The translations under genes and the position numbers were made by a program. Below, one piece after another: positions 2,224 through 10,341 of a stretch of DNA of 33,103 bases. Source of the stretch: a virus; IMG/VR virus record IMGVR_UViG_3300028666_000316, positions 1-33,103 of that record. One strand, given 5' to 3'. Every line of letters begins with the position of its first letter. The first letter of the stretch is position 1. Below the pieces are notes generated by a model. The model had not been told where the DNA came from. It saw nothing but the letters and a program-made list of their open reading frames with translations, and did no database searches.

Positions 2224-3987
2224 TTAGCTCTGGCAGCCAGCCGGGGCAACTGGGGCCGAAACGATGCCGCTGGCGCAGACCGTCGATGTGATCCAGAGAG
2301 ACTCGACGCCGATGCCGGCGGCGTTCTCCCAGGACTCGCCGAAGATCTGGTAGCTGTTAGTCGCGTTGAGTACCGAGTCTCGGACGATGCCGAGCTCGAG
2401 CACTCCGGAGTCGACGAAGAGCCACGATCCCGGTGCGAACAGCGCCCACTGGATCGCCGTCGGATACGGGTCGACCGCTCCGGGGCTCTGCGCACCGAAT
2501 ACCTGGGCGATCCCGTCGGACGGCCCGTCGAGCGTCCAGGAGACCGAGACGCCGAACGAGTTGAGCAGATCGGTGACGCCCTGCTGGTTGTACTGGAAGC
2601 GCTGGAACTGCGATGCGACGAGGTCACCGACGAGCAAGTCGGCTGTCCAGGCCGGCAGGATGGCCTGCAGCCGTGCGCCCTGCGTCATGCGGTTCCGCGA
2701 CCGGTAGCCGGCGGCGGCGACGAGGATGTCGTTCAGCAGAGTCGCCGTCGCTCCATCGTTGGCGGCACCCTGGCCGTTCGCGGTGACGGCGGTCGATCCG
2801 GCCTTGATCGCGTTCAGCAGGTTCGTCTCTGCGACCCGTGCGTGCTGTGCGAGGACGAGCGCGTTGAACTGAGCGATCTGCTCCGGGAACGCCCGGGCGC
2901 CGAGGTTCCCGGCGGTGACGCAGTGGAAGATCGAGTCGACGGTGACGATCTCGAAGTCGGGGCAGATCACCGTCTGGCAGGTCTTCGTGCCGGCCGACCC
3001 TCCGGCCGCGTCCTGGTCGGCGGTGATGATCCCGACCGCGTCGGTGATGTCGGAGATGACCGGGGGCGGTGCGAAGTTGATGCCGCCGCGGTCGGCGATG
3101 AAGCCGACGAGGGCGTCACGGACGGGCCGCTCGACGGTCGAGACGTTCGCCAGCTGGTAGTACGGTGTGACGGGGGCGCAGATTCCGCCGGACGCCACCA
3201 GGGCGAACGCTTCCTCTTCGCCTCCGCCGATGCCGCCCTGCTTGGCTGCGGCGACGAGCGCGTCGATCTTCTTCGTGTTTCCGAGCACGTCGTCTCCGAG
3301 GAGGCGCCGGTAGCCGGGGATCGCGTCGTTGTCGCGGAGGTCGAGCCGGGCGACGACGACCTGATCCTGGAATCCCTTCGGGACGGCGGTCTTGCGGTTC
3401 GCCGCCGCCCGGATCGCGAGGGCGAGGCTTTCGTCGTCGAGGGTCTCGCCGGCCCGGAAGCCGTCGAGGTCGGCGGACGCGGTGAGCGCGATGCCGCGGT
3501 TCGGCGGTGCCGCCTGAACGGCGGTGTGCCGTCCCTGCGCGGGGCGGCGGCGGAGCGGCGGCGCCGACGCGACGACCGTCTCGGGCACCTCTTCGACAAC
3601 CGGGGTCTCGACGACCTCGTCGACCGTCTCGGTCTCGGCGGCGAGCTCTTCGTCGGGCTTGTCCTCGTCGTCGGTGTCGTCGTCGCCCGTGTCGTCGGCA
3701 GCGGCGAGGGAGACATCGGAGATCTGAGAGAACTGGTTGACGAGTTCCTCGTCGACCGTCTTGGTCTGCATCTCGCGTGCGGCGAGTTCGTCGCGCACCT
3801 TGAGAAGGTCGTTGACTCCGGCCTTCATGATCTCCATGAGGTCGGGCTCGGTCAGACCCTCGAGAAGTTCCGGGTCGCGATCCTTGAGACGGGCGGCGAG
3901 CTTCTTGCCGTTCTCGAAGAACTCCTTGAGCTCCTCGTCGCTTGCGGCGTCGAAGTTCTCGGGCAGTGCGGGGAAGAGCGGTTCCAT
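2224..3987 (-). CDS. Major capsid protein with acidic N-terminal scaffold-like domain
   Basis: The start is the ATG at 3987-3985, chosen over an ATG 42 nt upstream because AAGGAG lies 7 nt before it. The 587-residue product has a charged helical N-terminal region (about 1-130, very rich in Asp and Glu) that looks like a scaffold/delta domain. A long C-terminal part then has the look of an HK97-fold coat protein, with an E-loop-like Gly-rich segment, a long helix and a beta-rich P-domain and A-domain. The likely processing enzyme is the protease part of the MuF fusion encoded 2.7 kb upstream. The gene has its own promoter because a plus-strand cassette separates it from the portal operon. The start has an unusually clear ribosome binding site for this window, as expected for an abundant protein. 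Confidence 0.82.
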   Translation of the reverse strand: MEPLFPALPENFDAASDEELKEFFENGKKLAARLKDRDPELLEGLTEPDLMEIMKAGVNDLLKVRDELAAREMQTKTVDEELVNQFSQISDVSLAAADDTGDDDTDDEDKPDEELAAETETVDEVVETPVVEEVPETVVASAPPLRRRPAQGRHTAVQAAPPNRGIALTASADLDGFRAGETLDDESLALAIRAAANRKTAVPKGFQDQVVVARLDLRDNDAIPGYRRLLGDDVLGNTKKIDALVAAAKQGGIGGGEEEAFALVASGGICAPVTPYYQLANVSTVERPVRDALVGFIADRGGINFAPPPVISDITDAVGIITADQDAAGGSAGTKTCQTVICPDFEIVTVDSIFHCVTAGNLGARAFPEQIAQFNALVLAQHARVAETNLLNAIKAGSTAVTANGQGAANDGATATLLNDILVAAAGYRSRNRMTQGARLQAILPAWTADLLVGDLVASQFQRFQYNQQGVTDLLNSFGVSVSWTLDGPSDGIAQVFGAQSPGAVDPYPTAIQWALFAPGSWLFVDSGVLELGIVRDSVLNATNSYQIFGESWENAAGIGVESLWITSTVCASGIVSAPVAPAGCQS

Positions 3988-4094
3988 AGCGGTGCTCCTT
4001 CTGCGAAGTGGAAGAGACGGAAAATTCACTTCGCCGGAGCAGCTATGCGGCTCGGCTCGTTCGTGGTAGCTAGGCGACCAGCGAACTGCCGAGG

Positions 4095-6687: not shown

Positions 6688-9600
6688 CAGGCGACGAGGG
6701 CGGCTAGGCCTTCGATGCCGTCGGCGGAGGCGGCCAGCACCGCGAGTTCGCGCTCGAGCGCCTCCTCGCACGGCTGGCACGCGGCCGACTCGACGAACTG
6801 CACCGCATCCTCGCCGTCGGGAAGCAGCCCTGAAGCAGTCAATGCGCGAGGGACGGGGAAGCCGGGAACGTTCACCTGGAGAACTCCGATGAGATCCTTG
6901 CCCTTGCCGCGGAAGACCTCGCGCCAGTCGCCCGATGGTTTGCTCGCCATGAGTGCCTGCGCGTCTGCGGCAGAGAGCCTCGCGCTGATGGTTCCGGCAA
7001 CCCAGATCCCGAAGGCGTCCTCGCCGGCCCGCACGAACGCCGCAGCCGTACCGGTGTTGTCGTAATGAGCGACTGCCTTGTCGGCGCTCAACCTGAGACC
7101 GGCGTGGCCCGTGTCCATCGTGAGAGTTCCGACGGCGACGGACTTCCCTTCTGCTGTTTTGATCTCTCCGAGATGGAACCCTTCGTAGCCTGACGGCGAC
7201 CGGGGCGGCGGCACGCATCGTCCGGGGAAACCGGTGTGGCAGCCATCCCAGGGCGCCATGTGGCCGTAGACGCGGCCTTCCTCCGTCACCGTGAGCGCGG
7301 TGAGTTGCCCGAGTTCAGGGTTCTCGAACCACTCCGCCGGCGGCCGTTCGGGTGCGAGGCCTGCCGCCGAAGCGGTGAGAACAGGGCCCTCGATGTCGGT
7401 CTCGGTGTTCCATTTCCCTTGCCGCTTGGCTGCCGATGCGATCAGCGAGATCGTGCTCTGCGGTGCGAGCGCCTGAACCGGGCAGATGGTGGCGCCGGCG
7501 ATCGTCCATTCCTTCGCGACCATGATGATCTCGATGTCGTCGAAGTCCGGCTCCGCCTCGACATCCTGCTCGGCCTCGATCGGCATGTCGTTCGGCAGAC
7601 CGGCCTCGGTCGGGCTGATCTCCTCGTCGGCCTGGGTCGGGTCGTTGACCTCGTCGAGCATGTCGTCGAGGCCGGTGACGGAGGATGCGTCGTATGCCAT
7701 CGGCTCCCATTCGCAGTCGACCATGTCGATCGAGATGCCGAGCCTTCGCATCTCCCCGACGAGCGCTGCGGCCTTCGATCCGATCGCGCGCAGGTCTGGG
7801 TCGTCCGAGTCGTCGAAGAGAACACCGTTCGCCTGGTACTGGTTGCCGGCGACGGAGATCGAGTCGATGCGGCCGCAGATCGGGGCACCGGTAACGACAT
7901 CCGCGTGCGGCCCGTCTTCCATCAGCATCAGCGGGAGCGGGAGCGGCAGCCAGGAGCCGCCGTCGGGTGAGAGCAGCCGCTTGACACCCGAGTCGACGGT
8001 CGGGACGCCAGCGACGCAGAGCGTGGCCGTCCACGGTGTTCCGCCGGCCGCGGCGGCGAGCAGGGCGGAATCCGTCAGCGGGGCGCGCGACGCGGGGGTG
8101 GGGGAGAGGCCGAGCGCCTCGCTGACGAGGATGAGCGCCGCCAGCTGCTCGTCGTCGAACGCGTCGCCGAACCCGCCTGCGGCGAGCGCGGAGCGAACCT
8201 CGGCGAACCGTGTCGCTTCCGGCGAGAGCGGTTCTGCGAGTTTCGCGGCGAGCTCTTCGCGCTCTTCGTGGGTCAGTGTGGCGACATCGATGGCCGGCAT
8301 GTTCCCTCCCGAGGTTAGAGCATCGGCGTGCGGTTTGGCAATCAGGTCGTAGTCGAACGAGCCCTCCCAGAGATGGTCGCGGAAACGCGCCAGCGCAGCG
8401 CTCGCCGTCAACGGCTGCCCATAAACCACTGTGCATCGGCAGTTGTGTGCGATCACGCTTCCGGCAAGGTATGATTGACGCCCACCGACCTGGAGGTTGT
8501 AGACAAACCCGTGGAACGGAAGAACATCCCGCTTGACGATCTTCGCCAGCGCTACCTCGCAGGGGAATCCGAGAAGGCGCTCGCCGAGTTCTACAATGTC
8601 AGCCGTCCCGTAATCCGCCGCCGTCTGCTCGAGCTCGGCATTCAACCTCGCAATCGCGCCGAGGGCATGGTCGCTCGGATGGCGCGGACGACTCCGGAGG
8701 AGCGTTCCCGTATGAGCGCCGCCGCCCACGACGCCGTCCGTGGCATGAAGCGCAGCCCCGAAGACCTCGCTCGACGCGCCCGAGGCAAGGAGGCCAGCCA
8801 GGTTCACATCGGCGGAGGTGAGGTGATGCTCGGAGAATGGCTCCGTGCTCGCGGGATCTCGTTCGTTCCGCAGAAGGCCGTTGGCCCCTACAACATCGAC
8901 CTCGCGATCAGGAATCTCGCCGTGGAAGTTCACGTTCGATCCGGGAATCCGTCGCGCGTCGCCCACTACGTCAAGCGCAGCGAATACCTCCTCAATCTTG
9001 GTCGGGACGTGATCTACGTCTGGATCAACGCCGGCTTCTTCCTGAACGAGCGCGCCGCAGACGAGATAGTCGCCATGCTCAAGATCACCAAGGGCCTTCC
9101 ATCCGGCGCTCGTCAGTACCGGGTGATTCGGGGTACCGGAGAGACGGTGCTCAGCATCGGTTTCGACAAGGATCAGGTCGCCGTCATACCAACGGCGAAA
9201 GCCACCCGCAAACGAAGCGGCAGCCACTAGCGTCTCGCCTGGGAAGCAGTTGGCGGATTCCTCCCATGAGAGATCCGGATCCCCTGGGTACTGGGCTGAT
9301 TCGCCGCCGACTGTGAATGTGTCGTTGATCGCGACGGTCTGCCCGTCGGCGTCCGCGTGCGTTTCGCGGGTGCGCTCGTCCTCGGTCGCCAGCCATGTTT
9401 TCGTCGAGGCCGCGTCAGCGGTGGTGGCTCCGAGCAGCGAGCCGGCGTTCGAGAGCGCGTTCAGGTCGGTGCGGGCGAGCATGTCGGCGCGCACCTTCGA
9501 GATCTTGTCGGTCGCGGTGACGATGTTGCGGGCGACACGGTCGACGGAGTAGCCGTTCGCGAAACCTTCCTGGATCGCCTCCGTGATCTGCTCCTCGATC

Positions 9601-9995
9601 GCCGACGTGATCGTTCCCTGGATGCGGGCGGCGATGGCATCCAGGATCGCCTGCGAAGTCGGCGCGTGGATGTCGAACGAGATGTCGAACGGCTGCATCG
9701 CGCTCGACGCCGAAGCGGTCAGCATCTGCCGGTGCAGCTTCGCGGTCTTCCGTTGCGTGTCGGCCTCGAGTTCCTGCTGGTCGATCAACTGCCCGGCGGG
9801 CGGCGGCGTCCAGTTCGGAGGCTGCTGGTCGGCCGCAGCGGTGATCGGGTGGATCTGCCGCATCCGGCCTGCGGCGCGACGTCCGGCGGCGCGCAACGTG
9901 CGCCCGTAGGCGCGAGTCAGAGCCGGAAGATGCTCGGCTGCCTTATCGGCGCCGGTCTTCGAGCCGTCGTTGATCTTCGTGTGCTTAGACGCCAT
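6687..9995 (-). CDS. MuF-like minor head protein / capsid maturation protease fusion, interrupted by an intein
   Basis: The start is ATG 9995-9993, 11 nt inside the end of the upstream gene, with GGGG upstream; a longer frame exists but lies inside that gene. The 1102-residue precursor has an N-terminal helical part (1-150), the MuF domain ending in the ESAN-CRC motif, an intein (residues 250-518), and then a long C-terminal part. The C-terminal part holds the segments SPDGGSWLPLPLPLML and GFHLGEIKTAEGKSVAVGT of actinophage capsid-maturation proteases. Removal of the intein would give an 833-residue fusion. MuF proteins sit at the portal inside the procapsid; the protease part would trim capsid and portal during head maturation. 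Codons for residues 256-506 are read on the other strand as a homing endonuclease. The catalytic residues of this protease type are not certain to me. Confidence 0.85.
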   Translation of the reverse strand: MASKHTKINDGSKTGADKAAEHLPALTRAYGRTLRAAGRRAAGRMRQIHPITAAADQQPPNWTPPPAGQLIDQQELEADTQRKTAKLHRQMLTASASSAMQPFDISFDIHAPTSQAILDAIAARIQGTITSAIEEQITEAIQEGFANGYSVDRVARNIVTATDKISKVRADMLARTDLNALSNAGSLLGATTADAASTKTWLATEDERTRETHADADGQTVAINDTFTVGGESAQYPGDPDLSWEESANCFPGETLVAAASFAGGFRRWYDGDLILVETDAEHRLSGTPNHPVLTSAGWKALGDLEHGDYLVCGALVQEEAGVDPDVDHVPTKIEEVFAALDVVGDARRIPGSNVNFHGEIPDREVDVVGANGLLRNERDPASTEPFSEHHLTSADVNLAGLLASGASSEVFGAALHATDGVVGGGAHTGTLLRSRPRHPSDHALGAIARLNAELEQTAADYGTADIVELGERLLGFPCEVALAKIVKRDVLPFHGFVYNLQVGGRQSYLAGSVIAHNCRCTVVYGQPLTASAALARFRDHLWEGSFDYDLIAKPHADALTSGGNMPAIDVATLTHEEREELAAKLAEPLSPEATRFAEVRSALAAGGFGDAFDDEQLAALILVSEALGLSPTPASRAPLTDSALLAAAAGGTPWTATLCVAGVPTVDSGVKRLLSPDGGSWLPLPLPLMLMEDGPHADVVTGAPICGRIDSISVAGNQYQANGVLFDDSDDPDLRAIGSKAAALVGEMRRLGISIDMVDCEWEPMAYDASSVTGLDDMLDEVNDPTQADEEISPTEAGLPNDMPIEAEQDVEAEPDFDDIEIIMVAKEWTIAGATICPVQALAPQSTISLIASAAKRQGKWNTETDIEGPVLTASAAGLAPERPPAEWFENPELGQLTALTVTEEGRVYGHMAPWDGCHTGFPGRCVPPPRSPSGYEGFHLGEIKTAEGKSVAVGTLTMDTGHAGLRLSADKAVAHYDNTGTAAAFVRAGEDAFGIWVAGTISARLSAADAQALMASKPSGDWREVFRGKGKDLIGVLQVNVPGFPVPRALTASGLLPDGEDAVQFVESAACQPCEEALERELAVLAASADGIEGLAALVA
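8442..9248 (-). other. Intein (Hint domain) inserted at the N|CRC motif of the MuF domain
   Basis: A 269-residue in-frame insertion. Block A is CFPGETLV with Cys1 (codon 9248-9246). Block B is GTPNHPVLT with the TxxH-type His. Block F is FHGFVYNLQVGG. Block G is SVIAHN with penultimate His and terminal Asn (codon 8444-8442), and the +1 residue is Cys (8441-8439). All residues needed for class 1 protein splicing are present. The extein junction is ESAN|CRCTVVYG, so insertion is exactly in the conserved MuF cysteine motif. The roughly 150 residues between blocks B and F show no LAGLIDADG, HNH or other nuclease motif on this strand; they are the antisense of the plus-strand nuclease gene. The intein is therefore best read as a mini-intein whose linker is dictated by the opposite strand. 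Confidence 0.93.
8475..9230 (+). CDS. Homing endonuclease (HTH plus Vsr/EDxHD-like PD-(D/E)xK nuclease) encoded antisense within the intein
   Basis: This 251-residue frame starts at TTG 8475, or more conservatively at GTG 8511, which has GGAGG 14 nt upstream. Residues 21-55 form a helix-turn-helix (YLAGESEKALAEFYNVSRP). Residues 72-107 are a basic linker with TPEERSRMSAAAHDAVRG, as in homing enzymes. Residues 115-185 form a Vsr-like fold: GEVMLGEWLRARG, then QKAVGPYNIDLAIRN with D142, then AVEVHV with E151 and H153, then a long basic helix and DVIYVWIN. The end (ADEIVAMLK, then QYRVIRG) is also typical of the family. It lies entirely within the intein, 33 nt from its C-terminal edge and 18 nt from its N-terminal edge, on the other strand. 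A TATGAT at 8470-8475 could be its -10. The nuclease likely cleaves intein-free MuF alleles (inference). Confidence 0.88.
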   Translation: MTPTDLEVVDKPVERKNIPLDDLRQRYLAGESEKALAEFYNVSRPVIRRRLLELGIQPRNRAEGMVARMARTTPEERSRMSAAAHDAVRGMKRSPEDLARRARGKEASQVHIGGGEVMLGEWLRARGISFVPQKAVGPYNIDLAIRNLAVEVHVRSGNPSRVAHYVKRSEYLLNLGRDVIYVWINAGFFLNERAADEIVAMLKITKGLPSGARQYRVIRGTGETVLSIGFDKDQVAVIPTAKATRKRSGSH

Positions 9996-10341
9996 GTGTG
10001 TCGCCCCAGCCGAACTTGTTCTCGCACCAGTGGAGCGCATGTACGAGTTCGTGATGCTCGCGCGTGTGGTGATGGGTGCACACCTTTCGGACGGTGCCGG
10101 CGACGGGATGCTCGCCACGCCGGATGCAAAGGTTGACACCGCAACGGTTATGCCAGCGCGCCCAAGCCGCCATCGACAGGCCGGCGATCAAGCCGACGCC
10201 GGAGACCCACTGGATCTCGTTCGCACCGACGTTGTAGAACGTGCTGCTACTCAGCGACGAGCCTGCGAGATGCGCGACCAGGAACATCCCGCAGGCGAGA
10301 GCGAAGCCGAAGATCGCCGCTCCGATCTCTTCCCTCCTCAT
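9985..10341 (-). CDS. Small membrane protein with His/Cys-rich tail
   Basis: A 118-residue protein with ATG 10341-10339, 3 nt after the portal stop, and its own end overlapping the MuF start by 11 nt. Two hydrophobic segments (about residues 5-28 and 44-62) are likely membrane helices. After them comes a hydrophilic tail with NRCGVNLCIRRGEHPVAG and CTHHHTREHHELVHALHWCENKFGW, which carries enough His and Cys for a metal site. Two short membrane spans could suggest a holin, but it lies in the head module far from the lysin, so I do not call it one. Function unknown. Confidence 0.65.
   Translation of the reverse strand: MRREEIGAAIFGFALACGMFLVAHLAGSSLSSSTFYNVGANEIQWVSGVGLIAGLSMAAWARWHNRCGVNLCIRRGEHPVAGTVRKVCTHHHTREHHELVHALHWCENKFGWGDTHGV

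Follow-up and report, generated by a model that had tools for sequence, protein, structure and literature searches.

An intein in a phage head protein and the homing endonuclease-like gene on its opposite strand

The question raised by this locus is whether one short stretch of phage DNA can encode an intein on one strand and a homing endonuclease on the other, or whether the second reading frame is an accident. The window considered here is the whole 33,103-nt stretch of viral DNA that was analyzed (IMG/VR record IMGVR_UViG_3300028666_000316, positions 1 to 33,103). The initial annotation, made without database searches, proposed a splicing-competent intein of 269 residues on the minus strand and, antisense to almost its entire length, a 251-codon plus-strand protein with a helix-turn-helix (HTH) and a Vsr/EDxHD-like nuclease core. 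We conclude that the locus is very likely (probability about 0.88) a mobile intein with a homing endonuclease gene on the opposite strand of the intein; transcription, translation, cleavage, and splicing are inferred.

The intein and the reading frame opposite it

Positions 8442..9248 (minus strand) encode an intein with a Hint fold within a MuF-type head protein, as shown by motifs, a Pfam match, modeling, and Foldseek; splicing itself is inferred. The 269-residue translation is free of stops and satisfies the sequence criteria for an intein: an N-terminal Cys (Cys1, in CFPGETL), a block B TxxH (TPNHP), and a C-terminal Asn after His (VIAHN), followed by a +1 Cys. It is matched by Pfam Intein_splicing (PF14890; E 4.6e-9, 36.7 bits vs. 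a gathering cut-off of 35.8). The predicted model shows a Hint fold with pLDDT >90 at residues 1-67 and 231-269, and its best Foldseek matches are the RecA and RadA inteins. Alignment, model, and codon tests delimit an N-terminal Hint segment (residues 1-112; 8913..9248, minus strand) that contains block A (9210-9248), block B (9111-9134), and, near its end, a DFHGDG-type motif (residues about 107-112; 8913-8930). The C-terminal Hint segment, delimited by alignment and model, carries blocks F and G, FVYNLQV...VIAHN (8442..8534, minus strand). The intein linker (8559..8912, minus strand), recognized by substitution tests and by its low model confidence (pLDDT mostly <50, residues 124 to 215), is antisense to the HTH, linker, and core of the nuclease. 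Profile matches identify the N-extein (9249..10139, minus strand) as MuF/SPP1 gp7-like; the C-extein (6690..8441, minus strand) begins CRCTV in translation, and its later part resembles portal/head maturation proteins by profile matches.

On the plus strand, the frame at 8475-9230 is open for 251 codons from a TTG (756 bp with the stop), and the two strands share codon boundaries, with nuclease residue i opposite intein residue 259-i. Relatives of this gene start at an ATG or GTG whose reverse complement encodes the block F His (in GHVYDLQ); the commonest position of this start is exactly 60 nt inward from the C edge of the intein. About 8 nt before it, a Shine-Dalgarno sequence, GGAGGT, arises in the same way from the block F Leu codon CTC and its neighbors. 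The start at TTG 8475 is disfavored, given that relatives begin at the complement of the block F His. Homology, start-site comparison, and the model instead point to a likely start at GTG 8511, giving a gene of 239 amino acids that ends in TAG (8511..9230, plus strand), with a Shine-Dalgarno-like GGAGG upstream (8492..8496, plus strand; sequence and family comparison), which block F codons (CTC CAG) form in reverse complement. This start is less certain than those of the family because its 14-nt spacing from GGAGG exceeds the usual ~8. The proposed 251-codon protein thus held only in part: The frame is open for that length, and the product is probably 239 amino acids. At its other end, the gene stops 3-93 nt short of the N edge of the intein in nearly all loci, in which it is shown to be confined within the intein.

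Some relatives depart from this scheme. Four (L012, L017, L018, and L020) have no ATG or GTG at the usual block F place, and the L017 group has also lost the Shine-Dalgarno sequence; the frame is still open in all four, and it is possible either that another start is in use or that the nuclease is newly inactive. No sigma-70 promoter was found on the nuclease strand of the single relative examined for one, from a Salmonella phage. In Salmonella phage PK2 (2459-3268 of locus L053, plus strand), mechanical annotation has placed a hypothetical protein, the antisense ORF, within the head gene.

The plus-strand protein belongs to an HTH plus Vsr/EDxHD-like nuclease family, as shown by homology and model; cleavage is inferred. 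Searched alone, the window nuclease gives weak matches only: phrog_664 (1.5e-5) over the HTH, and MTES_1575 (0.0015), for which the Pfam score of 19 bits is below the 38.2-bit gathering threshold. Of its 47 relatives, 42 match MTES_1575 at E values up to 0.1, the strongest being 2.3e-9, and two match Vsr. A PDB search with the single sequence returned nothing useful, and only the family profile succeeded, matching I-Bth0305I (3r3p) at 2.8e-6 and Vsr (1cw0) at 0.0037. The predicted AlphaFold2 model (pLDDT 88) has an N-terminal HTH (residues 20-53 from profile matches and model; 8532..8633, plus strand) and a Vsr-like core (residues 110-184 from alignment, profile, and model; 8802..9026, plus strand), and its best Foldseek match is again I-Bth0305I (E 2.7e-3, probability 1.00). 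In the family alignment (n=47), Y139, N140, D142, E151, and R168 are invariant and E116 is kept in >90%; in the window, E116, D142, and E151 are encoded on the plus strand at 8820-8822, 8898-8900, and 8925-8927. Of the EDxHD motif, E116 and D142 were found and the last D was not identified, and the H of the WH motif, present in about two thirds of relatives, is absent from the window nuclease. A C-terminal QYRVIxGxGE considered as a nuclease motif was rejected, per-codon tests showing it to be mostly the print of constraint on Hint block B.

Association of the two genes and selection on both frames

If the overlap were fortuitous, homologous inteins might lack the antisense frame. This check favored the original reading. 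All 46 nuclease relatives recovered in a first scan of viral contigs, using peptide patterns drawn from the nuclease alone, have an intein antisense to them in the same codon register. Alignment of 75 loci in the intein frame finds Cys1 in 69 and an Asn-Cys junction also in 69, and TxxH, the terminal His/Ser-Asn, and the +1 Cys are kept in most. The nuclease-intein association is therefore near-universal, as shown computationally. It had also been suggested that similar inteins occur in other phage head proteins, and their distribution proved broad: Named relatives come from phages of Gordonia, Mycobacterium, Salmonella, Escherichia, Klebsiella, Pseudomonas, Vibrio, Edwardsiella, Pantoea, and Aggregatibacter, and one further relative is in a Chloroflexota plasmid-prophage. 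Most copies are in MuF at HPN|CRC; others are at different MuF positions (L058, L030), in a head maturation protease (L007 group), or in a DNA polymerase (L033). Among 84,980 genomes of bacteria and archaea, one prophage-like locus (L059) was recovered; bacterial prophages remain barely sampled because this search used a single peptide pattern.

Several individual loci deserve mention. In L036 and L044 the element sits away from the head MuF context, in genes of no recognized family (phrog_19005 in L044). The copy in the polymerase gene (3427-8079 of L033, minus strand) has an HNH endonuclease-like stretch on the N-extein side, possibly a second mobile insertion. One phage contig has a second antisense nuclease/intein copy (about 1874-2302 of L006; G004:C1:15926-16852). 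In the minor head protein of Rhodococcus phage REQ3 (L087), the intein apparently begins with Ala and the antisense nuclease is without an HTH, which may reflect a different splicing class together with a decaying nuclease.

In the shared register, antisense stops can come only from TTA, CTA, and TCA codons. For the window alone about 2.2 would be expected (P about 0.1), and many chance ORFs are present in its GC-rich DNA; because so few antisense stops are expected there, ORF length alone is not evidence. What supports the nuclease instead is its homology, its conservation in hosts with GC contents as low as 37%, and the fact that both frames are selected. Across 51 representatives (below 70% identity), the amino acids of each intein and the codon usage of its extein predict about 310 stops in the nuclease frame, and none is observed; in L026 (37% GC) alone 24.8 are expected and the frame is open. 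The start signals leave a synonymous trace that matters only to the opposite strand, where it builds the Shine-Dalgarno sequence and the ATG. At the block F Leu, CTC is used in 35/46 cases, as against 12.6 predicted by extein codon usage (p 8e-14); the block F His is present in 39/51, with CAT as its codon in 33 (15.3 expected; p 1.4e-10). P values in these and the later tests are uncorrected for shared ancestry and are approximate.

Substitution rates, obtained from 27 close pairs that are not all independent, lead to the same view. At intein codon positions 1/2/3 the rates are.088/.031/.199 and.064/.031/.171 in the two Hint parts, as compared with.089/.063/.228 in the extein, whereas the intein linker shows the reverse of the extein pattern (.236/.071/.136). 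Substitutions in the linker thus concentrate at nuclease third positions and those in the Hint ends do the opposite, the switch tracking position along the element as a gradient. Per-codon tests find Y139, N140, D142, and others fixed for the nuclease, with the opposite intein residue following codon usage; for Hint codons the converse holds, and they are intein-constrained. The initial suggestion that the middle of the intein is the antisense print of the nuclease held, with a refinement: The DFHGDG of the intein, opposite the catalytic AVEI strand of the nuclease, is constrained in both frames and is not only a print. Computationally, each frame is shown to be under purifying selection of its own.

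Mobility and a nuclease without an intein

The element is mobile, as shown computationally by its precise presence or absence at one site and by its transfer independently of the host gene. When the flanks of the intein in E. coli phage Snoke are joined, they match contiguously in about 404 of the 486 phages with a match, and K1ind2 is an empty site, matching the joined flanks over all 500 nt at 90% identity. The announcement of Snoke described its intein as near-identical to that of a Salmonella phage and absent from K1ind2, and reported no nuclease. Likewise, joined flanks of the intein in Gordonia phage Vivi2 are contiguous in 102/160 Gordonia phages; K1ind2 and Brandonk123 are examples of phages whose MuF carries no intein. 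L012 and L013 differ at four nucleotides in the intein vs. 109/384 in the extein, and the inteins of L052 and L054, from Salmonella and E. coli phages, differ far less than their exteins do.

Acinetobacter phages of the Obolenskvirus group encode a free-standing nuclease of 297 amino acids, convergent with an uninterrupted MuF gene (2330-3223, plus strand, with MuF at 3217-3993, minus strand, in L086; 4001-4891 in L095). In the tree it nests, with support of 100/99, among the intein-associated nucleases of Aaphi23 and of Vibrio and Klebsiella phages, and we consider it a likely escape from an intein; that it might be the ancestor was rejected, as escape better fits its place inside the intein-associated clade. 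The Acinetobacter gene contains 12 antisense-stop codons and low-GC intein-borne relatives have none. The nuclease frame is therefore kept without an intein, and the antisense frame decays after intein loss.

Interpretation, alternatives, and precedents

Taken together, the two protein families, their near-universal association, dual selection, translation signals, and mobility have been shown computationally. In the proposed mechanism, the intein expressed from the head-gene strand would excise and restore the MuF head protein, and the other strand would yield the HTH plus Vsr/EDxHD-like nuclease from the start and ribosome-binding site embedded in block F. In a co-infection the nuclease would cut head genes that have no intein, and the complete element would be copied into them when the break is repaired with the intein-bearing gene as template. 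The nuclease core is mainly opposite the disordered intein linker and the intein ends are opposite the disordered tail of the nuclease or outside it, leaving intein residues about 37-112 that must satisfy both proteins. The weak points of the window nuclease are its 14-nt start spacing and the missing WH motif, and it may be decaying. A bolder reading, toward which we lean slightly, is that the locus represents a class of mobile element, widespread but undescribed, whose splicing domain and homing nuclease occupy opposite strands; in this class the start and ribosome-binding site come from conserved intein codons, and >70 codons serve two structured proteins.

The simplest alternative is a chance antisense ORF in GC-rich DNA whose conservation merely echoes the intein. 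The low stop expectation for the window alone and the abundance of antisense ORFs are in its favor. However, the protein matches nuclease families, the frame is open at 37% GC despite the many stops expected, it drives the substitution pattern of the linker, and the nuclease exists without an intein in Acinetobacter phages; the selection tests and the free-standing homolog refute this alternative, which can be all but excluded.

Alternatively, the nuclease could be real and the splicing domain a dead relic, the insertion being a nuclease element tolerated in the head protein, as in the ShiLan case below. The initial Ala of L087, the few loci without a clear Cys1, and the fact that splicing is only inferred could be cited in support, but the splicing residues are kept in most of the 75 loci, Hint codons are intein-constrained, and the Hint model exceeds a pLDDT of 90; we regard this as very unlikely. 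Finally, a nuclease that formerly homed may now be inactive in many lineages, including the window, and have another role, such as antisense regulation of the head gene. The suboptimal start and absent WH motif in the window, and the loss of the start codon or Shine-Dalgarno sequence in some relatives, are consistent with this. Yet catalytic residues, for which regulation would have no need, are kept (E116, D142, and E151), and recent transfers between diverged hosts are evident, making this reading unlikely as well. The mobile intein with an antisense homing endonuclease remains the preferred explanation.

The best profile and fold match of the nuclease core, I-Bth0305I (PDB 3r3p), is a phage homing enzyme with an extra DNA-binding region, like the window nuclease, and is classed with the homing endonucleases of group I introns (PMC3943268). 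In contrast to it, the gene described here is antisense within an intein, and the motif H and last D are not universal. Canonical large inteins with LAGLIDADG or HNH nucleases, such as PI-PfuI and the TerL inteins of mycobacteriophages, likewise combine Hint and a homing nuclease in one mobile unit, but there the nuclease is encoded in frame with the intein, on one strand, as a domain that is spliced out with it (PMC5050341). Group I introns with antisense homing endonuclease genes resemble the window element in having the nuclease opposite the host-gene strand; their partner is an RNA and the nuclease lies mostly in a peripheral extension, whereas here two proteins share codons. The nearest precedent found is the ShiLan domain/Pacc40 insertion (PMC11855218, 2025), a mobile phage-gene insertion, open in the host frame, with an endonuclease hidden in another frame of the same gene. 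It differs in that its nuclease is of the HNH type and uses the 'third frame' of the host gene, with no antisense arrangement mentioned, no detectable intein splicing domain, and no ribosome-binding site found; the window element, with its Hint and a Vsr-like rather than HNH nuclease, is not of this type. No description of a homing endonuclease antisense within an intein was found in the literature searched. We hold the novelty of the arrangement with moderate confidence, as a 2025 preprint on actinobacteriophage inteins of 'non-canonical architecture' (doi 10.1101/2025.01.02.630785) may overlap and could report some cases.

Long antisense gene pairs seldom gain acceptance because independent function is difficult to demonstrate, and few are considered fully established (PMC9927249). 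In the pair described here both proteins are in recognized families and recur in dozens of diverged phages of many hosts, with empty sites and an escaped nuclease as natural controls. The arrangement indicates how a selfish element can fit both splicing and mobility within about 0.8 kb, may account for some phage inteins that seemingly lack a nuclease, and offers a tractable system for the co-evolution of two proteins on complementary codons.
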